DNA of 51,014 nucleotides from Rhizobacter sp. Root1238 (GTDB lineage: Bacteria > Pseudomonadota > Gammaproteobacteria > Burkholderiales > Burkholderiaceae_C), in contig NZ_LMDM01000021.1 in NCBI RefSeq assembly GCF_001425825.1, positions 1-51,014 of the forward strand, read 5' to 3'. The notes under the pieces were generated by a model. The model made no database searches. It was not told where the DNA came from and worked only from the letters and a program-made list of their open reading frames with translations. Shown here piece by piece: positions 7,012-40,523 of this stretch (its first letter is position 1; every line of letters starts with the position of its first letter). Position numbers and translations under genes: made by a program.

Positions 7012-7020
7012 AAGGGTCGC

Positions 7021-7818
7021 TCAGCGCAGCCCGGCCACCAACGCCTCGACCGCCTTCGGCACCTGCTCGTCGATCAGCGCCTTCAGCGCATCGATCTTGC
7101 CCTTCGGCGTGAGGGCGTCCCAGGCGTCCGGCGACTGCGCGACGCCGGTCGACGCGCGCGAGAAATTCGCCTTGATGCGGGTCTCCTTCACGACCTCCAG
7201 CGACGCGAGATCGATCAACGACACCCGTGCGAAGAAGTACGGCGCAAAGAACCCGCGGCCGGTCTCGCCGGTGTCGGGGTTGATCATGCCGACGGCACGG
7301 TCGATGTAGAAGCCCAGGCCCTCCAGTTGGCCGCTGCCCAGGCTGTCGTGATCGCCGGCCTGCAGCCGCGCCGTCGCGAGTTGCTTCGTGACGAGCAGCA
7401 GGTGCGTGGCACCGTCCTTGCGCATCGCCGCGACCACCGCCGGCGAGAACTTCAGCCGACCGCCGTCGAGGAACCGATCCTGCTGCTCGAACATCGCCGG
7501 CGACGAGAGGTCGTAGAGCGACACGCGCGCACCGGCATCGAGGCGCTTCAACGCCGCTTCGGCCTGCGTCATCGCGTCGGCATCGAACACCCCGCCGCTC
7601 ACCGGCAATGCCTGCGTGCGGTTGCGCTCGATCGTGGTGCCGGTGCCCGCCTCGTGCGTCACCACTGAGAGCTTGTCGCCGATCAGCGAAACCACCGCAT
7701 AGCCGGCCGGCGGCACCGCTTCGGCAGCCATCGCCACAGCGCAGGCCGCCAGCAGCAGGCCCCCGAAAAACCCACGGGCCATCCGGCCCCCCATCACCAC
7801 GCCCATCACTGCTCCCAT
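7021..7818 (-). CDS. Uncharacterised exported protein, possible lipoprotein
   Basis: A protein of about 265 residues, with several possible start Met codons (7818, or the later MARGFFGG). It has a hydrophobic export signal containing LLAAC, which could be a lipobox; alternatively signal peptidase I could cut after AMA. The mature part is soluble, with the strands YAVVSLIGDKLSVVT, THLLLVTKQL and YFFARVSLIDLASLEVV, and I do not recognise a family. Its ATG overlaps the stop of the upstream decarboxylase gene as TGATG, so translation is probably coupled. It converges on the SsuA-like gene, with stops 9 bp apart. Confidence 0.7.
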   Translation of the reverse strand: MGAVMGVVMGGRMARGFFGGLLLAACAVAMAAEAVPPAGYAVVSLIGDKLSVVTHEAGTGTTIERNRTQALPVSGGVFDADAMTQAEAALKRLDAGARVSLYDLSSPAMFEQQDRFLDGGRLKFSPAVVAAMRKDGATHLLLVTKQLATARLQAGDHDSLGSGQLEGLGFYIDRAVGMINPDTGETGRGFFAPYFFARVSLIDLASLEVVKETRIKANFSRASTGVAQSPDAWDALTPKGKIDALKALIDEQVPKAVEALVAGLR

Positions 7819-10079
7819 CAGGTTTCCTTCACGCAATCCACGTGGTATGTGCGCGAGCCTTCGCCGCTGTCGTGTTCCACCAGCCCGTGCACGTCGGTGT
7901 CGAAGCCGGGAAACTTGCCGTTGAACTCGCGCGTGAACTTCAGGTAGTCGACGATCTTCTTGTTGAAGCGCTCGCCGGGGATCAGCAGCGGGATGCCCGG
8001 CGGGTACGGCGTCAGCAGCGAGGTGGTGACGCGGCCTTCGAGGTCGTCGATCGCCACCCGCTCGGTGTCGCGGTGCGCAATGCGCGCGAACGCATCGGTC
8101 GGCTTCATCGCCGGCTGCAGGTCCGACAGGTACATCTCGGTGGTCAGCCGCGCGATGTCGCCCTTCGCGTACATCTCGTGGATCGACTGGCTCAGGTCGG
8201 CCAGCCCCATGCGCTCGTAGCGCGGGTGCGCGGCGACGAACTCCGGCAGCACGCGCCACAGCGGCGCATTGCGGTCGTAGTCGTCCTTGAACTGCTGCAG
8301 CGCGGTCAGCAGCGTGTTCCAACGGCCCTTCGTGATGCCGATCGTGAACATGATGAAGAACGAGTACAGCCCGGTCTTCTCGACCACCACGCCGTGCTCG
8401 GCGAGGAACTTGGTGACGATGGACGCGGGGATGCCGGTCTTCGCGAACTTGCCCGAGACATCGAGCCCCGGCGTGATCAGCGTGCACTTGATGGGGTCGA
8501 GCAGGTTGAAGCCGCCCGCCAGGTCGCCGAAGCCGTGCCACTTCTCGCCGGCCTTCAGCACCCAGTCGGTGCTCTTGCCGATGCCTTCGCCGACCAGCTT
8601 GTCCGGGCCCCAGACCTTGAACCACCAGTCCTTGCCGTATTCCTTGTCGACCTTGCGCATCGCGCGGCGGAAGTCCATCGACTCGGCGATGCTCTCCTCG
8701 ACCAGCGCGCGCCCGCCCGGCGCTTCCATCATCGCGGCGGCCACGTCGCAGCTCGCGATGATCGCGTACTGCGGGCTGGTCGACGTGTGCATCAGGTAGG
8801 CCTCGTTGAAGAGGTGCGTGTCGAGCTTGCGGTGCTGCGCGTCTTGCACCAGCACCTGCGAGGCCTGGCTGATGCCGGCCAGCAGCTTGTGGGTGGACTG
8901 CGTCGCGTAGACGATCTGGTCCTTCGGGCGCGGCCGGTTGCGGCCCATCGCATGGAACTCGCCGTAGAACTCGTGGAAGGCGGCGTGCGGCAGCCAGGCT
9001 TCGTCGAAGTGCAGCGTGTCGATGTAGCCGTCGAGCGATTTCTTGATGCTCTCGGTGTTGTAGAGCACGCCGTCGTAGGTGCTCTGCGTCAGCGTCAGGA
9101 TGCGCGGCTTGACCTTCTTCGCATCGACGCCGGCCAGCAGCGGGTTCTTCGCGATCTTGCGGCGGATGGCCTCGGGCGAGAACTCGGCCTCGGGGATCGG
9201 GCCGATGATGCCGTAGTGGTTGCGCGTGGGCGGCAGGAACACCGGCACCGCGCCGGTCATGATGATCGAGTGCAGGATCGACTTGTGGCAGTTGCGGTCG
9301 ACCACCACCACGTCGCCCGGCGCCACGTTGTGGTGCCACACCATCTTGTTGCTGGTGCTGGTGCCGTTGGTCACGAAGAAGCAGTGGTCGGCATTGAAGA
9401 TGCGCGCCGCGTTGCGCTCGCTCTCGGCGATGGGGCCGGTGTGGTCGAGCAGCTGGCCGAGTTCGTCGACGCTGTTGCAGACGTCGGCGCGCAGCATGTT
9501 CTCGCCGAAGAACTGGTGAAACATCCGCCCGACCGGGCTCTTCAGGAACGCGACGCCGCCCGAGTGGCCGGGGCAGTGCCAGGAGTACGAGCCGTCCTGC
9601 GCGTAGTCGACCAGCGCGCGGAAGAACGGCGGCGCGAGGCCGTCCATGTACGACTTGGCTTCGCGGATGATGTGGCGGGCCACGAACTCCGGCGTGTCCT
9701 CGAACATGTGAATGAAGCCGTGCAGCTCGCGCAGCACGTCGTTGGGCAGGTGCTGCGAGGTGCGCGTCTCGCCATACAGGTAGATCGGGATCTCGGCGTT
9801 CTTGAAGCGGATCTCTTGAATGAACTTCCGCAGGTTCAGCACCACCGGGTCGAGCTCGGGGCCCTGGGTGAACTCGTTGTCGTCGATCGACAGGATGAAG
9901 GCGCTGGCGCGGCTTTGCTGCTGCGCGAACTGCGACAGGTCGCCATAGCTGGTGGCGCCCAGCACCTCGAAGCCCTCTTTTTCGATGGCCGCGGCCAGCG
10001 CCCGGATTCCCAGGCCCGAGGTGTTCTCGGAACGGAAGTCTTCGTCGATGATGACGATCGGAAAGTTGAATCGAAGCAT
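7818..10079 (-). CDS. Orn/Lys/Arg decarboxylase, biodegradative PLP type
   Basis: This 753-residue fold-type I PLP decarboxylase has the family's three parts: an N-terminal wing domain (IVIIDEDFRSENTSG, response-regulator-like), the PLP core and a C-terminal domain. The Schiff-base lysine is in QSTHKLLAG (Lys398), with HFDEAW (Asp359) for the pyridine nitrogen and HCPGH near the start of the core. The length matches E. coli AdiA/LdcC. Substrate choice between arginine, lysine and ornithine cannot be read safely. Such enzymes consume protons and make polyamines. The ATG at 10079 is preceded by GAGGTGACC. A longer frame starting at 10295 overlaps the divergent promoter region and was rejected. 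It is coupled to the downstream exported protein. Confidence 0.93.
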   Translation of the reverse strand: MLRFNFPIVIIDEDFRSENTSGLGIRALAAAIEKEGFEVLGATSYGDLSQFAQQQSRASAFILSIDDNEFTQGPELDPVVLNLRKFIQEIRFKNAEIPIYLYGETRTSQHLPNDVLRELHGFIHMFEDTPEFVARHIIREAKSYMDGLAPPFFRALVDYAQDGSYSWHCPGHSGGVAFLKSPVGRMFHQFFGENMLRADVCNSVDELGQLLDHTGPIAESERNAARIFNADHCFFVTNGTSTSNKMVWHHNVAPGDVVVVDRNCHKSILHSIIMTGAVPVFLPPTRNHYGIIGPIPEAEFSPEAIRRKIAKNPLLAGVDAKKVKPRILTLTQSTYDGVLYNTESIKKSLDGYIDTLHFDEAWLPHAAFHEFYGEFHAMGRNRPRPKDQIVYATQSTHKLLAGISQASQVLVQDAQHRKLDTHLFNEAYLMHTSTSPQYAIIASCDVAAAMMEAPGGRALVEESIAESMDFRRAMRKVDKEYGKDWWFKVWGPDKLVGEGIGKSTDWVLKAGEKWHGFGDLAGGFNLLDPIKCTLITPGLDVSGKFAKTGIPASIVTKFLAEHGVVVEKTGLYSFFIMFTIGITKGRWNTLLTALQQFKDDYDRNAPLWRVLPEFVAAHPRYERMGLADLSQSIHEMYAKGDIARLTTEMYLSDLQPAMKPTDAFARIAHRDTERVAIDDLEGRVTTSLLTPYPPGIPLLIPGERFNKKIVDYLKFTREFNGKFPGFDTDVHGLVEHDSGEGSRTYHVDCVKET

Positions 10080-10221
10080 GGTCACCTCAAGGAAACGCCG
10101 GGGGGCAACGGAATGGAAGGCGCGAAGTGTAGGGCCGTTCGATGACGGGCGTGGGGCCCCCTTACACTGCCCTTCGGTGCGTGCGGGGTGGACGCAACAG
10201 ACCTTCAAACGAGGAGAGGCC

Positions 10222-10662
10222 ATGGACATGAGCCCGTCGACGTTCTGGTGGGTGGCAGCGGGGCTGGCGGTGGCCGCCGAGCTGGCCACCGGCACCTTCT
10301 ACCTGCTGATGTTCGCGCTCGGCCTGGCCGCCGCGGCGCTGGCGGCCCTGCTCGGCTTCAAGCTGCCCGGCCAGCTGGTGATGGCGGCCGTGGTGGGCGG
10401 CGGCGCGGTCGCGCTGTGGCACTGGCGGCGCCTGCAGCGGCCGGCGTCCGGCCCGGTGCGCGAGAACCGCGACGTCAACATCGATATCGGTGAGCGGGTG
10501 AGCGTTGCGGCCTGGGCCGACGACCGCACCGCCCGCGTGCCCTACCGCGGCTCCACCTGGACTGCGCGGCTCGCCCCCGATGCCCCCGCGTTGCCCGGCG
10601 AGCACGTGGTGCAGGCGGTGGAAGGCAACTGGCTGGTGCTGGTGCCCGCCGCGGGCCGCTGA
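10222..10662 (+). CDS. NfeD-family membrane protein
   Basis: A 146-residue protein with two or three transmembrane helices in the first 70 residues (WWVAAGLAVAAELATGTFYLL and a following helix), then a short linker and a C-terminal OB-fold beta domain (GERVSVAAW to GNWLVLVPA). This is the short NfeD form. NfeD proteins pair with stomatin/SPFH proteins and are thought to help organise membrane microdomains. GAGGAGAGG lies just upstream of the ATG. It precedes the QmcA-like SPFH gene by 37 bp, the typical arrangement. Confidence 0.9.
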   Translation: MDMSPSTFWWVAAGLAVAAELATGTFYLLMFALGLAAAALAALLGFKLPGQLVMAAVVGGGAVALWHWRRLQRPASGPVRENRDVNIDIGERVSVAAWADDRTARVPYRGSTWTARLAPDAPALPGEHVVQAVEGNWLVLVPAAGR

Positions 10663-10699
10663 TTCCCTCTCCCCTCCCCTACTCCCTGGAAAGCCCCTC

Positions 10700-11617
10700 A
10701 TGGAAATCGCGTTGATTCTGGTGGTGATCGTCGGCATCTTCATCGTGCGCACGCTGAAGATCGTGCCGCAGCAGCATGCCTGGGTGGTCGAGCGGCTGGG
10801 CAAGTACGACCGCACGCTGGTGCCGGGGCTGAGCTTCGTGGTGCCCTTCATCGAGCGGGTGGCCTACAAGCATTCGCTGAAGGAAGTGCCGCTCGACGTG
10901 CCGAGCCAGGTCTGCATCACGAAGGACAACACGCAGCTGCAGGTCGACGGGATCATCTACTTCCAGATCACCGACCCGATGCGCGCGAGCTACGGCTCGA
11001 GCAACTACGTGTTCGCGATCACGCAGCTGGCGCAGACGCTGCTGCGCTCGGTGATCGGCAAGATGGAGCTGGACAAGACCTTCGAGGAACGCGACACGAT
11101 CAACGGCGCGGTGGTGAGCGCGCTCGACGAGGCGGCCGGCAACTGGGGCGTGAAGGTGCTGCGCTACGAGATCAAGGACCTGACGCCGCCGGCCGAGATC
11201 CTGCGCTCGATGCAGGCGCAGATCACCGCCGAGCGCGAGAAGCGCGCGCTGATCGCCGCGTCCGAAGGCCGCAAGCAGGAGCAGATCAACATCGCGACCG
11301 GCGAGCGCGAAGCGTCGATCGCCCGTTCCGAAGGTGCGCGGCAGGCCGAAATCAACAAGGCGCAGGGCGAGGCCGCGGCGATCACCGCGGTGGCCGACGC
11401 GACGGCCGGTGCCATCCGCAAGATCGCCGAGGCGATCCGCGAGCCTGGCGGTGAGCAGGCGGTGCAGCTGAAGGTGGCCGAGAAGGCGGTCGACGCGTAT
11501 GCCCACCTGGCGCAGAAGAACAACACGATGATCGTGCCGGGGAACATGACCGAGGTGGCGGGCCTGATCGGCACCGCGATGGCGCTGATGAAGGCCAAGG
11601 CACCGGGCCAGCCCTGA
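10700..11617 (+). CDS. qmcA: SPFH/stomatin family membrane protein QmcA
   Basis: A 305-residue protein, the same length as E. coli QmcA. It has an N-terminal membrane anchor (IALILVVIVGIFIV), an SPFH/band-7 domain (QQHAWVVERLGKYDR, DGIIYFQITDPMRA, SVIGKMELDKTFEERDTIN) and an Ala/Glu-rich coiled coil (about 165-245) with repeats around EREKRALIAASEGRKQEQIN. Stomatins form oligomeric membrane scaffolds that influence proteolysis and membrane organisation. The upstream NfeD gene is the usual partner. tRNA-Ser follows on the same strand. Confidence 0.93.
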   Translation: MEIALILVVIVGIFIVRTLKIVPQQHAWVVERLGKYDRTLVPGLSFVVPFIERVAYKHSLKEVPLDVPSQVCITKDNTQLQVDGIIYFQITDPMRASYGSSNYVFAITQLAQTLLRSVIGKMELDKTFEERDTINGAVVSALDEAAGNWGVKVLRYEIKDLTPPAEILRSMQAQITAEREKRALIAASEGRKQEQINIATGEREASIARSEGARQAEINKAQGEAAAITAVADATAGAIRKIAEAIREPGGEQAVQLKVAEKAVDAYAHLAQKNNTMIVPGNMTEVAGLIGTAMALMKAKAPGQP

Positions 11618-25775: not shown

Positions 25776-25821
25776 AGTCGTCTCAGGTTCGCGCCGCGGC
25801 GCGCGTTCAAGGGGGAGAACC

Positions 25822-27006
25822 ATGAAGACATCCGCGCGCCTGCTGGCGTCGCTTGCGCTCGGTTGCGGCCTGGCGGCATCGCTGCCCGCGCAGGCCACCG
25901 ACTACACGCTGTTCGATCTCGGTTCGCTGACGCCCGGCCAGGCGATGTGGGCGACGGGCATCAACGATCTCGGCCAGGTCGTCGGCTATTCGTATGGCGA
26001 CGGCCGCAACGGCGATTCGTCCAGCAACCTGTACAACGCCTTCGTGACCGGAGCGAACGGCACCGGCCTCACCGGCCTGGGCACGCTGGGCGGCAGCTGG
26101 AGCCGCGCGTTCGGGATCAACAACGCCGGGCAGGTGGTCGGCGATTCGCAGACGGCGTCGGGCGGGTTCCGCGCCTTCATCGGCACGGCCGGCGGCCCGC
26201 TCAACGACATCGGCACACTCGCCGGCAGCATCAGCAGCAGTGCCACCGCGATCAATGCCAGCGGCCAGGTCGTCGGTGTCGCGATCGACCCGATGGGCGG
26301 CGACCCGCGTGGCTTCGTTTCCGGCCCGAACGGCAGCAACCTGCAAGCCCTCGGCACCCTGAACGGCCAGCCACTGCATGGCCACGACATCAACGACAGC
26401 GGCCAAGTCGCCGGCGGCGTGAGCTACTCCTACCTCAACACCAGCTTCGTGACCGGCCCGAATGCCACCTCGCCCAGCGGCGTCTTCGCCGACACCAGCC
26501 GCGTCAACGCGATCAACAACCACGGGCAGGTGGCCGGGACGTACGGATCGGACTTCACCTACACGGACGCCTTCGTCGGCACGCCCGGGGGAACCGAAAC
26601 CCACCTCGACTTCCACGGCGTGGCGAACTACGAGTTCGGCAACCTCGGCGGCTTCGGCCAGTACGGTCCGATCTCGCAGAGCCAGGCGCTCGCGCTGAAC
26701 GACAGCGGCCAGGTGGCCGGCACGTTCAACAACGGCCGCATCGCGGACTACTTCGCCTTCATCACCGCCGCCAACGGCCAGGGCGTCGTCAACCTCGACA
26801 GCCTGTTCACGCTCGGCGACGGCGACCATTTCATCTACGCGACCGGCGTCAACAACGCCGGCCAGTTCATCGCGAACACCGCACTGGGGCATGCCTACCT
26901 GATCTCGCCGATCCCCGAGCCGGTCACGCTCGCGCTGTGGACGGGCGGGCTGCTGCTGATCGGATGGCGTGGCCGTCGCGCCACCACAACCAGGGAAACC
27001 ACATGA
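25822..27006 (+). CDS. HAF-repeat PEP-CTERM exported protein, first paralogue
   Basis: A 394-residue protein. After a signal peptide (LLASLALGCGLAASLPAQA) come seven or so beta-propeller-like HAF repeats of the form LGTLGGSWSRAFGINNAGQVVG. The C-terminus is a PEP-CTERM sorting tail: IPEPVTLALWTGGLLLIGW and then GRR. Such tails are cut by an exosortase that anchors or releases the protein, often with exopolysaccharide or biofilm. No exosortase gene is in the window. GGGGGAGA lies before the ATG. The stop overlaps the next ATG (ATGA). Confidence 0.9.
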   Translation: MKTSARLLASLALGCGLAASLPAQATDYTLFDLGSLTPGQAMWATGINDLGQVVGYSYGDGRNGDSSSNLYNAFVTGANGTGLTGLGTLGGSWSRAFGINNAGQVVGDSQTASGGFRAFIGTAGGPLNDIGTLAGSISSSATAINASGQVVGVAIDPMGGDPRGFVSGPNGSNLQALGTLNGQPLHGHDINDSGQVAGGVSYSYLNTSFVTGPNATSPSGVFADTSRVNAINNHGQVAGTYGSDFTYTDAFVGTPGGTETHLDFHGVANYEFGNLGGFGQYGPISQSQALALNDSGQVAGTFNNGRIADYFAFITAANGQGVVNLDSLFTLGDGDHFIYATGVNNAGQFIANTALGHAYLISPIPEPVTLALWTGGLLLIGWRGRRATTTRETT

Positions 27007-28280
27007 AGACTCCGAACTTCCTCGCCTCGCTGGCGCTCGCCGCCGGCCTCGCCTGCACCGCGACCGCCCACGCGCAGACCACGCAGTACCAGCTGTTCGA
27101 CATCGGCCAGCTGAGCCCCGGCGACGGGATGTACGCGACCGGCATCAACAACAGCGGGCAGGTCAGCGGCTATGCGTACACGAACGGCTTCAACGGCTGG
27201 TCGTCGGTCGGCGACTATCGCGCCTTCAGCACCGGCGCCAACGGCAGCGGCGTGACCGCCCTCGGCACGCTCGGCGGCAGCTGGAGCAAGGCGTACGGCA
27301 TCAACGACGCCGGCCAAGTGGTCGGCACGGCCCAGACGGCCGGCGGCAGCTTCCACGCGTTCCTGCGCGGCAGCACCGGTCCGATGCAGGACCTGGGCAC
27401 GCTGGGCGCGGTCAACAGCATCGCCACCGCGATCAATGCCAGCGGCCAGGTGATCGGCCGCACCGGCGGCGGCCCGTTCTCCAGCGATCCGGACTCGCTC
27501 GACCCGCAGCAAGGCTTCATCACCGATGCGAACGGCCAGGCGATGCGCTCGCTCGGCAGCCTGAACGGCCAGCCGCTGTTCGGCAACGGCCTCAACGACG
27601 CCGGCCGCGTGGTCGGCCACATCGGCTTCAGCGAGCTGAACCAGGCGGGCACCTTCGTGACCGGCGCGAACGGCAGCGCACCGGTGGCGCTGCCGGCGGC
27701 GGTGCACTACCAGGAGAGCTCGATCAACAACGCCGGCCAGATCGCCGGCACCTACATCGGGCCGCAGGACCAGATCGGCCGCAACGCCTACATCGGCAAC
27801 GATTCCGGCACCGTGAAGCCGCTCGATTTCTCGCATGTCGCGAACTACGCCCAGGGCAACCTGGGCGGCTCGGGCCAGTACGGCCCCGCGTCGTTCAGCG
27901 ACACCGCCGGCATCAACGAGTTCGGCCAGGTGGCGGGCACGATCCACAACCTCCGCTTCGGTCGCGACTTCGCATTCATCACCGGCGCCAACGGCCAGGG
28001 CGTGATCGACGTCAACAGCCTGTTCACGCTGGCCGACGGCGACTGGTTCCGCACCGTGACCGGCATCAACGACCAGGGGCAGTTCGTCGTCAACAGCGGC
28101 TACGGGCACGCCTACCTGATCTCGCCGATCCCCGAGCCGGCCACGCTCGCGCTGTGGGGCGTCGGCCTGCTGCTGATCGGCGGCGCGGCGCGGCGCCGGA
28201 TCAATGCAGCAACGGGGTCAGCAGGCCGCCCCACTGCCACAGCGCAAAGCCTGCGAGCAGCAATGCCGATGCCTTGTTGA
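27003..28280 (+). CDS. HAF-repeat PEP-CTERM exported protein, second paralogue with extended tail
   Basis: A 425-residue tandem paralogue of the preceding gene: the same signal peptide type (FLASLALAAGLACTATAHA), aligned HAF repeats (ALGTLGGSWSKAYGINDAG) and the sorting tail IPEPATLALWGVGLLLIGG followed by ARRR. Normally the protein stops just after the Arg cluster. Here it reads on for about 27 residues (NAATGSAGRPTATAQSL and more), overlapping the 3' end of the convergent LysE gene by 80 bp, so an original stop may have been lost. Its ATG overlaps the previous stop by four bases. Confidence 0.87.
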   Translation: MKTPNFLASLALAAGLACTATAHAQTTQYQLFDIGQLSPGDGMYATGINNSGQVSGYAYTNGFNGWSSVGDYRAFSTGANGSGVTALGTLGGSWSKAYGINDAGQVVGTAQTAGGSFHAFLRGSTGPMQDLGTLGAVNSIATAINASGQVIGRTGGGPFSSDPDSLDPQQGFITDANGQAMRSLGSLNGQPLFGNGLNDAGRVVGHIGFSELNQAGTFVTGANGSAPVALPAAVHYQESSINNAGQIAGTYIGPQDQIGRNAYIGNDSGTVKPLDFSHVANYAQGNLGGSGQYGPASFSDTAGINEFGQVAGTIHNLRFGRDFAFITGANGQGVIDVNSLFTLADGDWFRTVTGINDQGQFVVNSGYGHAYLISPIPEPATLALWGVGLLLIGGAARRRINAATGSAGRPTATAQSLRAAMPMPC

Positions 28281-32282: not shown

Positions 32283-33305
32283 ATGGGCAGTCTGGAGGAT
32301 CTCCCCGTGGGTGCGAACGACGGCTTTCTGCTCGATGCCTATTCACAGACCGTGTCCGACGTCGTCGAGCGCGCCGGGCCGAGCGTCGCGTCGGTCAAGC
32401 TGGTCGGCAGCAGCAGCAACCGCGATGCCGCGGTCGGCGGGGGTTCCGGCTTCCTGTTCACGCCCGACGGCTACCTGCTGACCAACTCGCACGTGACGCG
32501 CGCCGGTGCGGCCACGCTGCCGTCGCCGCAGGTCACGCGCCAGCGGGTGTCGCTGAGCGACGGCCGCGAGTTCGACGCGCGCTGGGTCGGCGACGATCCC
32601 GACACCGACCTCGCGCTGCTGCACATCGACGGCATGTCGCGCGGCGGGCTCACGCCGCTGCCGCTCGGTCGCTCGGCGCTGCTGCGGCGCGGCGAGATCG
32701 CGATCGCGATCGGCAACCCGCTCGGCTTCGAGCACACCGTGACGGCCGGCATCGTCAGCGCGCTCGGCCGCAGCATGCGCGCCGGCACCGGGCGGCTGAT
32801 CCCCGACGTGATCCAGACCGACGCCGCGCTGAACCCCGGCAACTCCGGCGGCCCGCTCCTGAACTCGCGCGGCGAGGTGGTCGGCGTCAACACCGCGATC
32901 ATCCGCGGCGCGCAGTCGATCAGCTTCGCGGTCGCCATCGACATCGCCGAATGGGTGATCCCGCAGCTGCTGCAGCACGGCCGGGTGCAGCGCGGCTACC
33001 TCGGCGTCGGCGGCAGCACGACGGCGCTCGACCGCCGCATCGTCGTCGGCCTCGGGCTCGCGCAGTCGCACGGCGTGCGGGTCTCGGCGGTCGAGCCCGG
33101 CAGCCCGGCGGCGCGCGCCGGGCTGCGCGAAGGCGACCTGCTGATCGGCATCGACGGCCTGGCGATCGAATCGGTCGACCGGCTGCACCAGGCGCTCGAC
33201 GCGAGCCGCATCAACCGCGACTGCGTGCTGAAGCTGCTGCGCGGCAACGCCACCGGCCAGCCGACGTACCTGACGGTGCGGCCGCTACCGCAGGCCTCGC
33301 GCTGA
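32283..33305 (+). CDS. HtrA/DegP-like S1C serine protease with PDZ, no signal peptide
   Basis: A 340-residue protein. The trypsin fold has a full triad: His70 (LLTNSHV), Asp109 (PDTDLALL) and Ser188 (NPGNSGGP). A PDZ domain follows at about 237-335 (RGYLGVGG, SPAARAGLREGDLLIGIDG). Unlike periplasmic DegP/DegS it starts with a soluble segment (MGSLEDLPVGANDGFLLDAY) and has no signal peptide or membrane anchor, so it is probably cytoplasmic. Next comes a Trypco1 gene, whose family is named for co-occurring with trypsin-like proteases in conflict systems, and then a convergent CHAT/STAND operon. I infer it is an effector or processing protease of that system rather than a general folding-stress protease. 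Confidence 0.88.
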   Translation: MGSLEDLPVGANDGFLLDAYSQTVSDVVERAGPSVASVKLVGSSSNRDAAVGGGSGFLFTPDGYLLTNSHVTRAGAATLPSPQVTRQRVSLSDGREFDARWVGDDPDTDLALLHIDGMSRGGLTPLPLGRSALLRRGEIAIAIGNPLGFEHTVTAGIVSALGRSMRAGTGRLIPDVIQTDAALNPGNSGGPLLNSRGEVVGVNTAIIRGAQSISFAVAIDIAEWVIPQLLQHGRVQRGYLGVGGSTTALDRRIVVGLGLAQSHGVRVSAVEPGSPAARAGLREGDLLIGIDGLAIESVDRLHQALDASRINRDCVLKLLRGNATGQPTYLTVRPLPQASR

Positions 33306-33411
33306 ACGCGGCGGCGGCGCATCCCCAACCCTGACGACGGCGCCGCGGCCCGGGCGGCCTATGCTCGGTGCAGCCCTGAACTTCGCGCGGCAACGCGCCG
33401 GGAGAACCGCG

Positions 33412-33759
33412 ATGGCCACACGAGAGATCCTGATCGACGGCGTGCTGCTGAGCGTCGAGGTCGATGCCACCGACGTGATCGTGACGCCGCCCCCCGCCGG
33501 CCTCGTCGAGCGCGGCGGCCTGGTCGAACGCGGCGTGGTGGCCGACAAGGTGCGCGACATCGGCCAGGAGATGCGCAGCCTGCTGTCTGCGGTGACGCGG
33601 CCGGTGCGCGAGGCGCTGGAGGCCACGCAGCCCGACAGCTGGAGCGTCGAGCTGAACCTCGGCTTCAAGGGCGAGGCCGGCATCCCCTGCCTCACCAAGG
33701 GCGAGGCCAACGGCTCGATCAAGGTCAGCGCGAGCTGGAAGAAGCCCGCCGCGGCGTGA
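33412..33759 (+). CDS. Trypco1 (trypsin-co-occurring domain 1, CU044_2847 family) protein
   Basis: A 115-residue protein from ATG 33412 (GGGAGAA upstream). Order: a beta-hairpin start (TREILIDGVLLSVEVDAT), a helical middle (VADKVRDIGQEMRSLLSAVTRPVREAL) and a C-terminal beta region (WSVELNLGFKGEAG, then GSIKVSASWKK). This layout matches the small Trypco1 family found next to trypsin-like proteases and STAND NTPases in NTP-dependent conflict systems. The family call is from pattern memory. It lies 106 bp after the protease gene. Its last 35 bp overlap the 3' end of the convergent STAND gene. Confidence 0.72.
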   Translation: MATREILIDGVLLSVEVDATDVIVTPPPAGLVERGGLVERGVVADKVRDIGQEMRSLLSAVTRPVREALEATQPDSWSVELNLGFKGEAGIPCLTKGEANGSIKVSASWKKPAAA

Positions 33760-36700
33760 GCTTCTTGCCCAGGCAGCCGACCGGCGCGCCGAGCAGCCGG
33801 CAGCGCTCGCCGGGGTCGAGGTCGCGGCTGGCCTGGGCCTGCGCTTCCTCCATCACGCGCCGGCCGTCGGTCGGGACGATGCGGCCGTTGCGGTCGACCA
33901 TGTAGCCGCCCTGCGGCGTCAGCTGCGTCGCGGAAAAGCCCTGCAGGTCGGTCTCGAGCACCGGCTCGGTTGACGGCAGCCGGTAGAGGCGCAGCCGCTG
34001 CTGGTCCTGCAGGCGCACGGCCATCACGTTGCCGCTGCGGCTGAAGGCCGGCTGCGCCGGCCAGCCCTTCAGCACGATCGGCGGCGCCGCCGGGTCGTCG
34101 AGCAGGCGCAGCTCCAGCCCGTCGCCGGACGCGCTCTGGCCGAACGCATGGCGCCCGCTCGGGTCGACGTCCATCTCGGCGCGCAGCCCACCGAGCAGCG
34201 CACCGCCGTGCAGGTCGAGCAGGTCCCAGCCGGACGGAGTGCGCAGCGCGACGAGGCCGGTCGCCTCGTTGACGACCAGCCGGCCGCGCGCCGACGCGCC
34301 GAGCTCCATCGCCGGCGTCGGCGCATCGCTGCGCAAGTCCCACAGCTCGGTGTGCCGCGCGTCCCTCAGCTGCAGCACCCCGCCGCCGCCGAGCAGCGCG
34401 ATGTTCATGCCGTCCGGCGCCGGCCGTTCGATGCGGCGCAACACCCGCGCCACGCCCTGCTCGATCGCCTGCACCTCGATCCGCACCCGTCCCGGCAGCA
34501 CGGTCTTGGTCGCGAACAGCCGGGCGTGGCCGAGCACCAGCGCATCGGCGCGCGGGTTGGCGCGGCTCACGCGGCTCTCCCGGGCAGCGCCCTCGGGCTC
34601 GGGCATGCGGAACACCGGCTGCTCGGCGGCGGTGTACAGCAGCCACTCGTCGCCGTCGCGCACCAGGTGCAGGTCGTCGGCACGGGCGATCACGCCATCG
34701 TGCCGGTGCCGCGACAACGGCCGGCCGCTCGCGAGGTCGAAGCCGCTCAGGCACCGCCGCTCGGCGCTCTCGCAGCGGCCCGACAGCACCAGCTGCGACT
34801 CGTCCGGCGACACGCCGATCTCCGCCGGCGAGTCGTGCAGGTCGGGGGTGTCCAGGTGCTGCAGCAGCTGGCCGTCGCGCAGCCTGCGCAGTTCCAGCCC
34901 GTCGCCCGCCGGACCGCGCATCGCGACCAGCATGCGCGTCTCGTCGCGGCTGACCCACCAGGGCGCGACCCGGTCGCCCAGCGGGCGCAGCCGCGGCCGC
35001 AGGTCGTAGATGCGCACCGCGTCGTCGGCCGCCTTGATCGCCAGCCGGTTGCCCTGCTCGCTCAGGCTCACCAGCGACTCGTAGGAATCGCGCACCGGCA
35101 TGTCGAACGCCCCCTGCAGGCGCCACAGCCCGGTCGACACCAGGTCCGACACCTGCACCTCGCCGGCGCCGCGCAGCAGCTTGACGATGCGCCGGCCGTC
35201 GCGGTTGATGACGATGTCGTCGACGCCGCCCGATTCGCTGCGGTCGATGTGCTGGTACGGCACCCGCCGTTCGCCCTGCAGGCGTTGCAGGTCGAGCAGG
35301 CACAGCTGCGGGATGACCGACACGCCCAGCGTGCCGCCGCCTTGCGCGAAGGCATAGCCGAGGTCCTTGCAGGGCTGCGCGTCGACGCTCGAGGCCAGCG
35401 TCCCGCGGGCGTCGTAGCTGAACAGGCGCACGCCGAAGCCGGGCCAGCCGGGCCGCTGCGCCGCGACGATCTCCTGCCCGCCGTTGCGGAACACCGCGCC
35501 CATCAGCCCGCCGACCAGCCCGGTGTCGACGTTCTCGGGGCGCCGGCTGAACAACAGCCTGCCGTCGTCGACCGACCACACCCGCAGTTCGTTCGCATCG
35601 GCGGTGATGCCCGCCAGCAACCGACCGTCGGGGCTGAAGTCCAGGTGGCCGACATCGCCGCTGCCGTCGAGCGCGCGCGGCGCCGCCGCGGCGGTGGCCG
35701 TCGATGGCGCCGGCCACAGCACCACGCCGGCGTCGGTGGCGGCCACCACCTGCCCGTTCGGGCCGTAGGCGACGTGGTGCACGGTGCCCGGCGTCGCCGG
35801 CCAGGCCAGGCGGCGCTGCGGCCGCAAGGCCGGCAGCCCGAGTTCCCATTCGCCGATGCCGTCGGCCCCTGCCACCAGCAGGCGCTGGCCGTCGGGCGCC
35901 AGCGCCAGCGCGTCGACCGGCCCGAGCTGCTCCCGGGTCAGCCGCTGCGAGGCCCAGCGGTACTGCGTCGCCTCGATCACGGCCGGCGCCACCGCGTTCT
36001 GCCGCAGCGGGTCGTGCTCGACGACGTCGTTGGCGAGCGCCAGGCTCTGCTCGGCGTTCACCGCGGCGACGCTGCCGGCGCGCGAGGCCAGCATCGACAG
36101 CCAGGTGTCGTCGCGCTGGCGCTCCGCCCTCGCCGTGGCCGCGTTCGCCGCGGCGGTCTGCCGCTGCGCCGTCGCGGCCTGTTGCCGCGCCTCGTTGCTG
36201 ACCTGCGTCGCTTCTTCGCTGGTCTTCACCGCGGCCTCGCTGATCTTGCGGGCCTCGACCTGGGCGGCGTTGGCATTGGCATAGGCCACCTGGGCGTCCG
36301 CCTTCGCCCTGCGGAGCAGCGCGACGGCCTCTTCCTTCGCCCTGTCCTTCTCGCGTTCCGCCTGCTTCTGCGCGGCCGACGTGGCGATCCAGCCCAGGAT
36401 CGCCAGCACGAACAGCCCGAGCGCCGAGAAGCCGGCGATCGTGGCCCAGCGCAGCCGCTTCGCGATGCGGCGGTTCGCATGCTCCTGGGCCGCCTTGGCC
36501 TCTCTGGCGATCAACTCGCGCGCCTCCGCCAGGTCGGCGCGCTCGCTCTCGACGGCGATGCGCCTGGCCTCCTCGTCGGCCCGCGCGTACTGCAGCGCCA
36601 GCTCCGCCGCATCGCTCGCATCGAGGAACTCGCGCTCCAGCGGCGTGATCGCGCCGCGGTCGAATTCCGCATTGGCCTGCTCCAGCGCCAGCCCGCCGAG

Positions 36701-38296
36701 CAGGAACGCCTTGTCGAAATCGCCCTCGCGCCATTTCTCGGCCTGCTTGCGCAGGAAGGCGCGGCGCTCGCGCTCCACCCGCTGCTCGGCGAACAGGTGG
36801 TCCAGCAGGTCCCAGTTGCGCAGCAGCGATTCGTGCGCGACCTCGGCCACGTCGTCCAGCGGGTCTCCCGACGCGGCCGGCGTCAGCCGCACCAGCCGCG
36901 CCCGCACGAACTTGTCGAGCACCGCCTCGACGTTGGTCGGGTCGGCCACGCCGTGCAGCACGCGCCGCGTCGCGCGGCTGCGGAACACGCTGGCCGCCTC
37001 GCCGGGGCGCGACAGCGCGAGGAACACCTTCTGCGCGGCCAGCTGCTGCTCGCGCGACAGCTGGTTCTCGTACACCCGCCGGGCCGCCTCGGCCATCGCC
37101 TGGCGCGGGCTGCCGACCTCGCGGTAGGCGTCGCGCGTGATCAGGTTGCCCTTGCGCCGCGCCCACAGCGAGGTCAGGCTGAACTGCAGCAGCGGCAGGC
37201 TCGCGTCCTCGCCGACCACGCTCTTGATCAGCTCGTCGACCAGCCCGGCCTGGAACTTCAGGCCGACCTGCTGGGCCGGGCGCTCGATCGCCTCGCGCAG
37301 CCGCGCGGCCTCCATCGAATACACCGAGAACTCGGCCTCGCCGTAGCGCCGGTTCAGGTCGGGGTATTCGCGCGCCAGCTGCGGCTCGACGTCCTTGCGC
37401 ATCGTCGCGACGACGCGGTGCGCCGCGCCGGGCGCGTCGACCACCGCGCACAGCGCGGCGACGAACGCCAGGTGCGAGGCCGAGGTCTGCTCGGTGCGCA
37501 GCGTCAGCGCCTCTTCGAACTGGTCGACGACCAGCGCCGCCGGCTGCACCAGCGGCGACAGCATCGCGACCGCATGGTCCGGGTCGCGCAGCAGCCGCGC
37601 GGCGTGGTCGGCGATCGTCGCATCGTCCGGCTCGGTGGGGCCACCCGCCGCCAGCAGCAGCGCGTGGGCCAGCTGCCGCAGCGGCGTCACGCCCGGCGTC
37701 AACGGCGGCGGGTAGACCCAGCCGGCGCTGCCGTCCACCGCACCGCTGCGCAAGGCCGGCAGCAGCCCGGCCAGCACCAGCGACGACTTGCCGCTGCCCG
37801 ACGCGCCGGTGACGATCAGCAGCCGCTGCCGCCGCAGCCGCTCCAGCAGCGCGGCGATCTGGTCGTCGCGGCCGAAGAAATGCTTCGCATCGGATTCGCC
37901 GAACGCGGCCAGCCCGAGGTAGGGGCAGGCCTCGTCCGACAGCTGCGGCAGCAGCGCGGGGTCGTGCGGCACGAGCAGTGGCCGCGTGACGTCCAGGCCG
38001 TGGCTGTAGCAACGGCCGGCCCAGTAGTCGAGCATCGCCTGGCAGGCGCGCCGCTCGCGGGTCTCGTCGAGGTAGGCGCCGCCGGCCGCGCCGCGCTGCA
38101 GGAACGCGGCGACGTCGGGGAACATGCCCAGCAGGTGCTGCCGCTCGCGCTCGGCGTGCCCGTCGTCCCGGGCGTCGCCCACCTCGGCCATCACGTCGGC
38201 CTCGATCTCCACCTGGTCCATCCGCAGCATCAAGGCCTCGTGGACCTCCTGGAACTCGGCGATCGTCTGGAACGGCAGTCGCTCCGGCAGGTTCAT
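33725..38296 (-). CDS. nSTAND1-type NTPase with TM, coiled coil and WD40-like repeats
   Basis: A 1523-residue protein. Residues 1-115 are an unassigned helical N-terminal domain (FQTIAEFQEVHEALMLRMD, RGAAGGAYLDETRERRACQ). The NTPase begins at about 124 with CPYLGLAAFGESDAKHFFGR, the nSTAND1 signature. Walker A is GASGSGKSS (Lys170) and Walker B is ALVVDQFEE (Asp258), followed by a helical winged-helix/lid region to about 560. A coiled coil leads to one TM helix (about 619-640), then an Ala/Glu/Arg-rich coiled coil and, from about 800, WD40-like repeats to the end. STAND proteins oligomerise on sensing a target and switch on an effector. Its ATG overlaps the CHAT gene stop (ATGA), so the CHAT protease is the likely effector. 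Confidence 0.9.
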   Translation of the reverse strand: MNLPERLPFQTIAEFQEVHEALMLRMDQVEIEADVMAEVGDARDDGHAERERQHLLGMFPDVAAFLQRGAAGGAYLDETRERRACQAMLDYWAGRCYSHGLDVTRPLLVPHDPALLPQLSDEACPYLGLAAFGESDAKHFFGRDDQIAALLERLRRQRLLIVTGASGSGKSSLVLAGLLPALRSGAVDGSAGWVYPPPLTPGVTPLRQLAHALLLAAGGPTEPDDATIADHAARLLRDPDHAVAMLSPLVQPAALVVDQFEEALTLRTEQTSASHLAFVAALCAVVDAPGAAHRVVATMRKDVEPQLAREYPDLNRRYGEAEFSVYSMEAARLREAIERPAQQVGLKFQAGLVDELIKSVVGEDASLPLLQFSLTSLWARRKGNLITRDAYREVGSPRQAMAEAARRVYENQLSREQQLAAQKVFLALSRPGEAASVFRSRATRRVLHGVADPTNVEAVLDKFVRARLVRLTPAASGDPLDDVAEVAHESLLRNWDLLDHLFAEQRVERERRAFLRKQAEKWREGDFDKAFLLGGLALEQANAEFDRGAITPLEREFLDASDAAELALQYARADEEARRIAVESERADLAEARELIAREAKAAQEHANRRIAKRLRWATIAGFSALGLFVLAILGWIATSAAQKQAEREKDRAKEEAVALLRRAKADAQVAYANANAAQVEARKISEAAVKTSEEATQVSNEARQQAATAQRQTAAANAATARAERQRDDTWLSMLASRAGSVAAVNAEQSLALANDVVEHDPLRQNAVAPAVIEATQYRWASQRLTREQLGPVDALALAPDGQRLLVAGADGIGEWELGLPALRPQRRLAWPATPGTVHHVAYGPNGQVVAATDAGVVLWPAPSTATAAAAPRALDGSGDVGHLDFSPDGRLLAGITADANELRVWSVDDGRLLFSRRPENVDTGLVGGLMGAVFRNGGQEIVAAQRPGWPGFGVRLFSYDARGTLASSVDAQPCKDLGYAFAQGGGTLGVSVIPQLCLLDLQRLQGERRVPYQHIDRSESGGVDDIVINRDGRRIVKLLRGAGEVQVSDLVSTGLWRLQGAFDMPVRDSYESLVSLSEQGNRLAIKAADDAVRIYDLRPRLRPLGDRVAPWWVSRDETRMLVAMRGPAGDGLELRRLRDGQLLQHLDTPDLHDSPAEIGVSPDESQLVLSGRCESAERRCLSGFDLASGRPLSRHRHDGVIARADDLHLVRDGDEWLLYTAAEQPVFRMPEPEGAARESRVSRANPRADALVLGHARLFATKTVLPGRVRIEVQAIEQGVARVLRRIERPAPDGMNIALLGGGGVLQLRDARHTELWDLRSDAPTPAMELGASARGRLVVNEATGLVALRTPSGWDLLDLHGGALLGGLRAEMDVDPSGRHAFGQSASGDGLELRLLDDPAAPPIVLKGWPAQPAFSRSGNVMAVRLQDQQRLRLYRLPSTEPVLETDLQGFSATQLTPQGGYMVDRNGRIVPTDGRRVMEEAQAQASRDLDPGERCRLLGAPVGCLGKKLTPRRASSSSR

Positions 38297-40335
38297 GCGC
38301 GCCGCCCGCCGGACACCCGGTCCTTCATGTCGCCGCACAGGTTCTTCAGGTCGGTGTCGATGGTGTAGAAGCCGTAGTCGAAGTCGTCGCAGAACTCGCC
38401 GAAGGCGGTGCAGGTCGACAGCGCATCGTTGGCGGCGACGCCGATGCGCAGCAGCTCGGCATGGCGGCCCAGGTCGGCGCAGCCGGCCGAGGTCCAGTCG
38501 GGCAGCATGCGCGCGATCGAATCCGACAGCATCCGCCACTGCCGGCGGATCTCGTGGAAGCGCTGCGCCTCGGCCGCCTTGCGGATCACCGCGAGCCGGT
38601 TGTCGAGGCCCTGGCACAGCGTGTGCACCGTGGCGCCCTTGCGCAGCCTGGCCCCCAGCGCGCGGATCTCCTCGACGGCGCCGGCGTCGAAATCGGCGCC
38701 CATGCTGCCGAGGAAGGCCAGCAGCAGCTCCAGGTCCAGGTGCTTGGCGAGTGAGGCCATCGTCGTGTCGACCAGCGCCGGCTGCACCGTCAGCAGCGTG
38801 TCGAACGCGGCCAGCGCATCGTCGAGCCCCTCGAGCGAGCGCTCGACCAGCGCCTGCTCCAGCGTGCCGAGCGCGGCGGCGAATTCGGCGATCAGCGGCT
38901 GCATCAGCTGCGCGTCGCAACGCTCCTGCTGCGCGACGCGCCGCACGTCGAACAGGCACTTCTTCATGTCGCGGCAGTGCGCCGAGAACTGCGCGACCGA
39001 GCTGCCGGCCGGAAATTCGTCGCGCCGCAGCTGGATCATGTTGAAGTCGCCGCGCGCGGAGTGCAGTGCGTCGTGCACCACCTTGTGGTCGTGCAGCTCC
39101 GCGATCTCCGACAGCACGATGGCCACCTCGCTGCTGGTGCCGGACTTCGCGGCGGCGGGCGGCGCGGCCGGCGGCGCGGCAGCCGGCACCGCGAGCGCGG
39201 CCCGCAGCCCCAGCTCATGCCCTTCGGCGATGCGCATGTACAGCACCGGCGTCGCGAAATCGCGGCCGGTGGGCAGGTTCAGGTTCAGGATCGCGCCGCG
39301 CGCCTCGGCCATCGCCTCGTCGATGGTGTCGACGCGCGACAGCGCCAGGTACAGCATCTTCGAGAACGCGACCGCGCTCGCGTCGTACACCGAGTACTGC
39401 ATGCCGATCACCACCGGGATGCCGGCCCGCACCAGCGACGGCGCGACGCCGGCCCACTTGTTGCGCCCGTCGCTGCGCGCCGACTGGCAGGCCGCGAGCA
39501 CCGCGAGCCGGATGCCCTTCGACGCCAGCGAGCGCGCCAGCGCGTCGACCTCCCACGGGTCGCTGGCACCGTCGTCGCGCTGCATGACCAGGTGGGCCGA
39601 CGGCGCACCGCCGTGGGCCGGCGTCACGAACTCGCCGTGGCCGCTGAAGTGGAAGATCTCGGTGCCGTCGAGCAGCACGCGCTGCAGCGCTTCGCGGGTG
39701 GCCGGCTGGCAGACCCTCATCTCCAGGCCCGCGACGCCGGCGATCGCCTCGCGCAGGTTCTGCAGCTCCTGGTCGACCTGCAGGGGCTGGCCCGGCGTCC
39801 GGCGGTCTTCGGGCTCGCACGGCACCGCCAGCAGCCGCCAGCCGGCGCGCCGGCCCTGCACCGGCACCGCGAGCTGCGAGCAGACCTCGTAGCGAACCAC
39901 CGAGACGCGGCTGTCGCCGACCAGGAAGCCGCGCAGCCCGAGCGCGTCGCCGCTGTCGTCGAGCCCGCGCTCGACATAGGCGAACTCCCAGGGCACGGCG
40001 TCGAGCTCGATCGCGCTGCACTTGATGCGCAGGCGCAGGCCCTGCGTCGCGCCCAGCCGCGCCAGCGAGTTGGTGAAGAACTCGCGCGCCTTCGGCGGCA
40101 GCAGCAGGTCGCCGATGCGCTGGCCGAGCGCGACCAGCTCGCCGCGCTGGCCGCCCAGCCGGCGCGCGTCGAGCGCCGCGAGCTGCTGCGCCAGGTCGGG
40201 TGGCACGCGGACCTCTTCTTCCTTCTCCTGCTCGCCGACCGGCGACGCCATCACCTGCACGCGAAAGCGTTCCTCGCCCGCGGAGCGGACGTGGTCGGAC
40301 AGTCGGATGTCGAGGTTCAGGTACTCGTCGATCAT
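38293..40335 (-). CDS. CHAT-domain (caspase-like) protease with helical C-terminal domain
   Basis: A 680-residue protein. An N-terminal beta/helical region (1-160) includes IELDAVPWEFAYV, common before CHAT domains. The CHAT protease (about 165-375) has the catalytic histidine in IFHFSGHGEF (His233) and the catalytic cysteine in VLAACQSAR (Cys283), and closes with ATPVLYMRIA. An Ala/Pro linker (about 383-397) leads to a helical domain of about 280 residues that I cannot assign. CHAT enzymes are cysteine proteases of the caspase/separase clan, used in defence and cell-death systems. It is first in the operon with the STAND NTPase. Start ATG 40335 was chosen as the only Met before the domain, with a weak GAGG upstream. 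Confidence 0.92.
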   Translation of the reverse strand: MIDEYLNLDIRLSDHVRSAGEERFRVQVMASPVGEQEKEEEVRVPPDLAQQLAALDARRLGGQRGELVALGQRIGDLLLPPKAREFFTNSLARLGATQGLRLRIKCSAIELDAVPWEFAYVERGLDDSGDALGLRGFLVGDSRVSVVRYEVCSQLAVPVQGRRAGWRLLAVPCEPEDRRTPGQPLQVDQELQNLREAIAGVAGLEMRVCQPATREALQRVLLDGTEIFHFSGHGEFVTPAHGGAPSAHLVMQRDDGASDPWEVDALARSLASKGIRLAVLAACQSARSDGRNKWAGVAPSLVRAGIPVVIGMQYSVYDASAVAFSKMLYLALSRVDTIDEAMAEARGAILNLNLPTGRDFATPVLYMRIAEGHELGLRAALAVPAAAPPAAPPAAAKSGTSSEVAIVLSEIAELHDHKVVHDALHSARGDFNMIQLRRDEFPAGSSVAQFSAHCRDMKKCLFDVRRVAQQERCDAQLMQPLIAEFAAALGTLEQALVERSLEGLDDALAAFDTLLTVQPALVDTTMASLAKHLDLELLLAFLGSMGADFDAGAVEEIRALGARLRKGATVHTLCQGLDNRLAVIRKAAEAQRFHEIRRQWRMLSDSIARMLPDWTSAGCADLGRHAELLRIGVAANDALSTCTAFGEFCDDFDYGFYTIDTDLKNLCGDMKDRVSGGRRA

Positions 40336-40346
40336 CGGGGCGCCTC

Positions 40347-40435
40347 GGGGGAAACAGGCCGAGTGGACGCCACCCGATGGCGCTGCGCATCCTCATTCGA
40401 ACGGACGCCGCAGCCCGGTCCCCCTGTTTCGGGGG
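40347..40435 (-). promoter_or_regulatory. Hairpins in the leader of the CHAT-STAND operon
   Basis: A local hairpin CCCCC-TGTTTC-GGGGG lies at 40420-40435. The sequence CCTGTTTC within it is the inverse complement of GAAACAGG at 40351-40358, next to the ribosome site. On the operon's minus-strand RNA the two structures would exclude each other. Confidence 0.4.
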
Positions 40436-40523
40436 CCTGCTCGCGCCCCCTGGTTCGAGCTGTCGGACTCCCGCCCGCCTTGGCGTTTTCACGGTCGAGA
40501 GAGGCCGTGCCGCGACGCGCAGG

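Follow-up and report, generated by a model that had tools for sequence, protein, structure and literature searches.

A Trypco1 gene beside separate CHAT protease and nSTAND1 NTPase genes in Rhizobacter sp. Root1238: a candidate unfused form of Trypco1/protease–STAND conflict systems

Four adjacent genes of Rhizobacter sp. Root1238 raise two questions: which of them act together, and what kind of protease a Trypco1 protein can accompany. The genes lie on contig NZ_LMDM01000021.1 of assembly GCF_001425825.1, of which positions 1 to 51,014 of the forward strand were analysed (this whole 51,014-nucleotide stretch is referred to here as the window). They encode an HtrA-like serine protease, a Trypco1 protein, an nSTAND1 nucleoside triphosphatase (NTPase) with WD40-like repeats and a CHAT protease. 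Components of this kind are known from other bacterial conflict loci, and their unfused arrangement with two proteases is unusual. In its account of VMAP ternary systems, Kaur 2020 (PMC7159879) defines Trypco1 and Trypco2 by their position next to trypsin-like peptidases, and a figure legend there gives the Trypco–trypsin and hydrolase–caspase pairings as mutually exclusive. A Trypco2 gene is described at a diversity-generating retroelement (DGR) locus with a CHAT–TIR target (PNAS 2024, PMC10907252), and the association of Trypco proteins with caspase-fold proteases is in that respect already partly published; nSTAND1 is named as a clade of STAND proteins in conflict systems in PMC8195603. The literature searched gives Trypco1 no function and describes it as a trypsin partner. 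Judging from sequence, we favour, with a little more confidence than doubt, a reading in which Trypco1, CHAT and the nSTAND1–transmembrane (TM)–WD40 protein would form an unfused, caspase-fold version of the Trypco1/protease–STAND conflict systems, the HtrA-like protease being co-opted or simply a neighbour.

Domain content and arrangement of the four genes

All four open frames were present in the window, in the following layout.

32283..33305, + strand: HtrA-like serine protease with one PDZ domain (340 aa; H70/D109/S188; membership in the system uncertain)
33412..33759, + strand: Trypco1 protein (115 aa counted from the conserved ATG; the longest frame begins at 33361)
33725..38296, - strand: nSTAND1 NTPase, TM helix, coiled-coil-like stretch and WD40-like propeller (1523 aa)
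38293..40335, - strand: CHAT protease (680 aa; H233/C283; C-terminal 300-aa region)
40336..40517, - strand: conserved region upstream of CHAT (collinearity with genomes G005 and G008 ends at 40517)

The HtrA/Trypco1 and CHAT/nSTAND1 pairs are convergent, and the 3' ends of the Trypco1 and STAND genes overlap by 35 bases. CHAT and STAND overlap in an ATGA, the STAND gene starting at 38296 inside the CHAT stop codon. Gene overlaps thus connect Trypco1 to the STAND 3' end and STAND to CHAT, placing Trypco1 beside a STAND-linked protease. The HtrA gene ends 106 bases before the conserved Trypco1 start on the same strand. Promoter and terminator scans of the locus found none, and no terminator-like site was found in the interval between these two genes.

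The nSTAND1 domain (PF20703; 320.7 bits, cut-off 27.1) occupies about residues 123–524 when counted from 38290, to which two are added for the true start at 38296. The protein contains GASGSGKSS (motif position 164, including K170) and LVVDQFEE, which we take to be the Walker A and Walker B motifs of a STAND protein. A single hydrophobic segment lies at about residues 620–638, and WD40-like matches run from about residue 784 onward, so that the ATPase motifs, TM helix and repeats reported in a first-pass annotation of this DNA were all located. No Pfam family was matched at E ≤ 10 by the first ~120 residues.

The CHAT protein matched PF12770 (89.3 bits, cut-off 24) and carries its dyad as H233 in HFSGHG and C283 in AACQS (motif positions 229 and 281). 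A search against solved structures gave no match at E ≤ 0.1, and its fold was not confirmed by a model. Its last 300 residues matched no Pfam family at E ≤ 10 and had no relatives detected outside the genus. Together with the N-terminal ~120 residues of STAND, this region was also compared with 4226 frames from fetched loci, giving nothing at E ≤ 0.05 except the window genome's own copy in L030. The CHAT C-terminus and the STAND N-terminus were not similar by BLASTP, which gave no support to a homotypic adaptor or to an effector-associated domain common to the two proteins, the feature of EAD-linked systems, although remote homology is possible. Elsewhere, CHAT was seen fused to DUF7379 in L043 (genome G277, 6416–11058) and L067, the G277 gene coming after an eCIS_core protein.

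Trypco1 was correctly recognized in the first-pass annotation (PF19493, 53.7 bits against 24.6; NCBIfam NF041216, 47.7 against 23), with its start now corrected. Translation probably begins at 33412 rather than 33361, because the frame of G008 begins there and the ATG with its preceding GGAGAA is kept in three genomes: that of the window (G000) and two genomes of the same genus carrying the same locus (G005 and G008). In the longest frame, from 33361, the 17 codons ahead of this ATG were not conserved in G008. Used as a single query, the window Trypco1 matched just these two relatives among the genome contigs and nothing among the plasmids at E ≤ 1e-5. A Trypco1 profile gave only weak matches to solved structures (best E 0.015), mostly to helical or designed proteins, which were judged to be due to chance.

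The remaining gene had been called a trypsin. The description as a serine protease with its triad stands, and the residues given for both proteases were rightly placed (H70/D109/S188, motif positions 68, 107 and 186, in this protein), but the protein is HtrA-like: a Trypsin_2 domain (116.9 bits, cut-off 27.6) with the triad is followed by PDZ_6 (47.8 bits, cut-off 27), and the 60 related solved structures listed were all of HtrA/Deg type (HhoA, DegP, DegS, HtrA2 and the like). Its best NCBIfam model, degP_htrA_DO, scored 275.2 bits against a cut-off of 416.2, and it fell below the cut-offs of all named HtrA/Deg models; it is therefore called HtrA-like without assignment to a named member. Because its N-terminus has no hydrophobic, signal-like segment (best 19-residue hydropathy in residues 1–60, 0.65), the protease is probably cytosolic. 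At its 3' end (window about 33280–33310), ~26 bases were absent from the G008 alignment, and the G008 protein has a different C-terminal tail.

In predicted type the protease differs from the trypsins usually found beside Trypco1. It scored 10 bits against a profile of six Pfam-checked Trypco1-linked trypsins, and nine such trypsins, each taken as a single query, all failed to match it at E ≤ 1e-3. Five of its plasmid relatives (from 464 records; two from Caballeronia, two from Sinorhizobium and one from Thermomicrobium; near full-length, 46–55% identity) were examined, and none had Trypco1, CHAT or STAND within 8 kb. On both of these grounds it appears to be either recruited or a bystander.

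Constraint and distribution in the genus and order

All four genes are under constraint, since their frames are kept in G005 and G008 with ratios of non-synonymous to synonymous substitution rates (dN/dS) of 0.10–0.47. Against G005 and G008, respectively, dN/dS was 0.10 and 0.12 for HtrA, the lowest of the four, 0.15 and 0.35 for CHAT, 0.29 and 0.43 for STAND, and 0.47 and 0.43 for Trypco1. Within CHAT, residues 137–340, which include the dyad, were 93–99% identical, compared with 71–78% for the first 136. Identity of STAND to G008 was 84% over residues 1–100, 89–98% over 101–600, 49% over 601–700 (TM and coil) and 70–84% over 701–1500.

Trypco1, CHAT and the close HtrA occurred in the same three of 11 genus genomes, nSTAND1 not having been searched for in the other eight. 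HtrA was 97–100% identical in the three, whereas the other eight had only matches of 39–47%, mostly lacking residues 1–40. The flanking transporter had the same distribution (3/11, E ≤ 1e-60), a flanking GGDEF protein was ~90% identical in those three genomes only, and the window was largely collinear across G000, G005 and G008. Co-occurrence in the genus was therefore rejected as proof of one system. The two halves of the locus do occur together in two other genomes, as a shared system would require, but these are close relatives, and the pattern amounts to shared ancestry that adds nothing independent to the case; independent evidence must come from other lineages. In the order sample, CHAT was matched (E ≤ 1e-10) in 3/399 genomes, the window's own included, the two others being partial at 34–35% identity, and Trypco1 exceeded its cut-off in 2/399, again including the window's own, with G227 and G239 below the family cut-off.

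From the breakpoint at window position 40517, G005 and G008 have an additional block of genes beside CHAT (G005 contig C11, about 162500–171900; G008 contig C40, about 82300–91600). It is divergent from CHAT and encodes a large VanY–peptidase M23–3D domain protein along with others that match no Pfam family above the cut-off; the VanY/M23 protein had no match in G000 at E ≤ 1e-5. The block was rejected as an essential component, as G000 lacks it at this site and yet keeps the four genes under constraint. Elsewhere in the window, at 25820–28189, two adjacent stretches match each other's G005/G008 counterpart at 68–70% and in matching orientation, probably as a result of tandem duplication.

Trypco1 neighbourhoods in other lineages

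Forty-eight Trypco1 loci other than that of the window were compared. Twenty were on plasmids (L064 from the STAND search, L066 from the CHAT search and 18 hand-picked; 20 of 43 records were examined) and 28 were genome stretches (L045, L068–L075, L102–L104 and L123–L138). The numbers from these loci are not frequencies, because the last search concentrated on the G855 family. Of the 48 loci, 34 had a detected trypsin, 11 a caspase-fold protease without a detected trypsin (CHAT in L066, L069 and L071; caspase in L103, L127–L132 and L135) and three neither class (L073, L074 and L102); none had both. The STAND-linked protease of the window, being CHAT, is not of the usual trypsin type. Trypco1 lay at or near a contig end in L073 and L102, and the HtrA-query match in L074 was a PDZ domain alone on a ChaN-type protein.

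The six-trypsin profile had at first given 30 trypsin, 11 caspase-fold and seven neither. A recheck of stop-to-stop frames, using nine queries for trypsin, three for CHAT and one for caspase, gave the final 34/11/3 by adding L133, L134, L136 and L137, the trypsins of three of which were confirmed by Pfam. The trypsin, CHAT and STAND profiles and queries were built from members of this sample, whose own matches are therefore automatic. Sensitivity for distant trypsins was limited, so that the label 'without detected trypsin' does not prove that none is there.

Trypsin and nSTAND1 mostly shared a single frame in the 18 hand-picked plasmid loci; on a Streptomyces plasmid, for example, Trypco1 immediately precedes a trypsin–nSTAND1–WD40 gene. 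The CHAT and Trypco1 genes of an Arthrobacter plasmid overlap as a pair. Caspase–nSTAND1–WD40 proteins beside Trypco1 recur within one family, that of G855, of the window's class, where the caspase proteins are mostly caspase–nSTAND1 and stand head-to-head with Trypco1. In the eight caspase loci, the caspase domain was confirmed by Pfam in five (L103, L127, L129, L131 and L132), and nSTAND1 with WD40 in four (L103, L128, L130 and L135); the 25 families listed for L132 included WD40 but not nSTAND1, and L127 had a short caspase protein without nSTAND1. Only 4/28 pairs of these loci share a flanking protein at >40% identity, so the Trypco1–caspase pair appears at different sites, even though their Trypco1 proteins are mutually related (50–97% identity).

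Other settings were also seen. In L045 and L104, Trypco1 lies beside genes resembling, by eye, type I restriction-modification genes, with an adjacent trypsin, accompanied in L104 by an NTPase domain. On the cyanobacterial plasmids L088 and L089, Trypco1 occurs with a serine protease, a MoxR-type ATPase and formylglycine-generating-enzyme proteins, by DGR genes.

Proposed mechanism, rival explanations and comparison with known systems

The nSTAND1 protein would act as an ATP-dependent switch that its one helix anchors in the inner membrane, with the faster-diverging WD40-like propeller as the likely sensor. Because of its use of ATP the NTPase would lie in the cytosol, and the propeller would be periplasmic if the helix spans the membrane once. 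A stimulus would cause STAND to oligomerise and so to gather and activate CHAT, the effector protease. In related single-gene systems the protease and nSTAND1 are fused; in the window the link would presumably be made between proteins, possibly through the orphan N-terminal region of STAND and the orphan C-terminal region of CHAT. Trypco1 would be the small partner that accompanies STAND-gated proteases. Since it is found with proteases of both the chymotrypsin fold and the caspase fold, an adaptor or a cleaved substrate/effector seems to us more likely than an inhibitor specific to a single protease class; its position beside caspase-fold proteases in 11/48 sampled loci argues against such an inhibitor. 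The predicted outcome would be a phage-related or cell-death phenotype.

In favour of this reading stand the domain matches over their cut-offs, the ATGA shared by CHAT and STAND, the purifying selection on all four genes with the contrast in rate along STAND, and the recurrence of Trypco1 with protease–nSTAND1 proteins in other lineages. Several observations weigh against this reading. No locus with separate CHAT, nSTAND1 and Trypco1 genes was found outside the genus, and the Trypco1 census was non-random, one family having been searched since its first member, G855, had a caspase. PADLOC matched neither Trypco1 nor STAND, and its matches to CHAT (SAVED_CHAT, 34.5 bits; BovA, 23) and HtrA (RT-Protease_XI, 39.6 bits) were weak and partial. 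Structure prediction gave unusable models for CHAT and Trypco1 (mean pLDDT 39.9 and 48.7); the low-confidence Trypco1 layout, strand–strand–helix–strand–strand, was not used as evidence. Lysine and arginine counts around the STAND helix (six before, five after) do not decide its orientation. Synonymous rates (dS) were likewise raised across the propeller, whose divergence may therefore reflect replacement by a diverged allele.

The first-pass annotation had joined all four genes in one conflict system. Its core of CHAT, nSTAND1 and Trypco1 fits known conflict-system logic; the membership of HtrA is uncertain. A four-gene, two-protease cascade, in which STAND activates CHAT, CHAT and the cytosolic HtrA work one after the other and Trypco1 gates HtrA, seems rather unlikely to us. 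It would account for the same-strand spacing of 106 bases with no terminator-like site found between HtrA and Trypco1, and for the close HtrA of the three genus genomes with Trypco1 and CHAT (97–100%, against just 39–47% in the other eight); proteolytic activation of a second enzyme is, moreover, established for trypsin and caspase acting on nucleases, as described in PMC12799240. It sits poorly with the 10-bit score of HtrA against the Trypco1-linked trypsin profile and the 0/9 single trypsin queries matching it, with the absence of Trypco1, CHAT and STAND within 8 kb of 5/5 examined HtrA relatives, with the 0/48 other Trypco1 loci holding both classes, and with HtrA being the most constrained of the genes (dN/dS about 0.10–0.12 compared with 0.15–0.47). 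The protease type, the relatives (0/5) and the loci (0/48) also tell against the earlier suggestion that HtrA is a trypsin partner cut or released by CHAT.

That the halves are unrelated, with CHAT–nSTAND1 a complete pair and HtrA–Trypco1 a separate stress-protease pair converging on it by chance, is unlikely. The pairs are indeed on opposite strands, the CHAT–STAND overlap is self-contained, and on one Tolypothrix and one Ruegeria plasmid an ATPase gene adjoins CHAT, the fetched stretch containing no Trypco1 match. Set against this, the HtrA–Trypco1 pair occurred in 0/5 examined HtrA relatives, the Trypco1-linked trypsin profile barely matches HtrA, Trypco1 beside protease–nSTAND1 is common in the sample, and Trypco1 and STAND overlap at their 3' ends. 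A module for regulatory or housekeeping signalling, in stress or development for instance, in place of an anti-phage or cell-death system would agree with the lack of a defence model for STAND or Trypco1, with the lack of any mobile-element family among the seven window proteins scanned and with a weak match of CHAT to the HetF cell-division model (36 bits, cut-off 1200). We regard it as very improbable given the sparse distribution in the order sample (CHAT 3/399 and Trypco1 2/399, own genome included) and the occurrence of related parts on plasmids, beside DGR genes or by restriction-modification-like genes.

A bolder proposal, which we consider improbable, is that Trypco1 is misnamed and would be a general partner, most likely a shared cleaved substrate/effector, of STAND-gated proteases of two unrelated folds, and that here CHAT and the cytosolic HtrA, which represent one fold each, would both act on it in one pathway, a two-fold protease cascade under a membrane-anchored STAND sensor. 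The recurrence of Trypco1 beside caspase-fold proteases makes a concrete question testable, namely whether a STAND-gated protease cuts Trypco1, and the window locus lends itself to this question because its switch, protease and Trypco1 are encoded separately, so that each can be removed or mutated alone.

No description of the exact four-gene set was found in the open-access literature searched, supplements not being covered. The favoured trio and its HtrA-like neighbour can nevertheless be placed among known systems. The neighbour shares its protease domain, PDZ domain and catalytic triad with HtrA/Deg proteins (DegP, DegS and HhoA) but has no signal-peptide-like N-terminus and stays under the named NCBIfam cut-offs. 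Protease-activated nuclease systems (AVAST/Hachiman pairs and Canu), in which nucleases are activated in defence by trypsin or caspase cleavage as described in PMC12799240, resemble the window in having an activating protease of trypsin or caspase fold; none of the four window proteins matches a nuclease family, a search in which the outer neighbours were not included. In the VMAP/MoxR ternary systems, as Kaur 2020 (PMC7159879) presents them, Trypco1 likewise partners a protease in an NTPase-switch system, but their parts are MoxR, vWA and VMAP, whereas the window NTPase is nSTAND1: a four-sequence MoxR profile had no match in window frames of at least 70 aa at E ≤ 1e-5, and neither vWA nor VMAP was among the matches of the seven window proteins scanned, no aimed whole-window search having been made.

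Closer likenesses are found in the two-gene loci of Streptomyces and other plasmids, where Trypco1, annotated as CU044_2847 family, adjoins a trypsin–nSTAND1–WD40 gene. Trypco1, nSTAND1, WD40 and a protease are again encoded in adjacent genes, but those loci have a trypsin as their protease, in most cases fused to nSTAND1, with Trypco1 upstream on the same strand, whereas the window has CHAT in a separate overlapping gene and a convergent Trypco1. The pairs of the G855 family match the window in combining a caspase-fold protease, nSTAND1, WD40 and Trypco1 with no trypsin detected. They differ in having no HtrA match in their stretches, in using a caspase (C14) instead of CHAT, and in carrying protease and switch as a single fused protein head-to-head with Trypco1.

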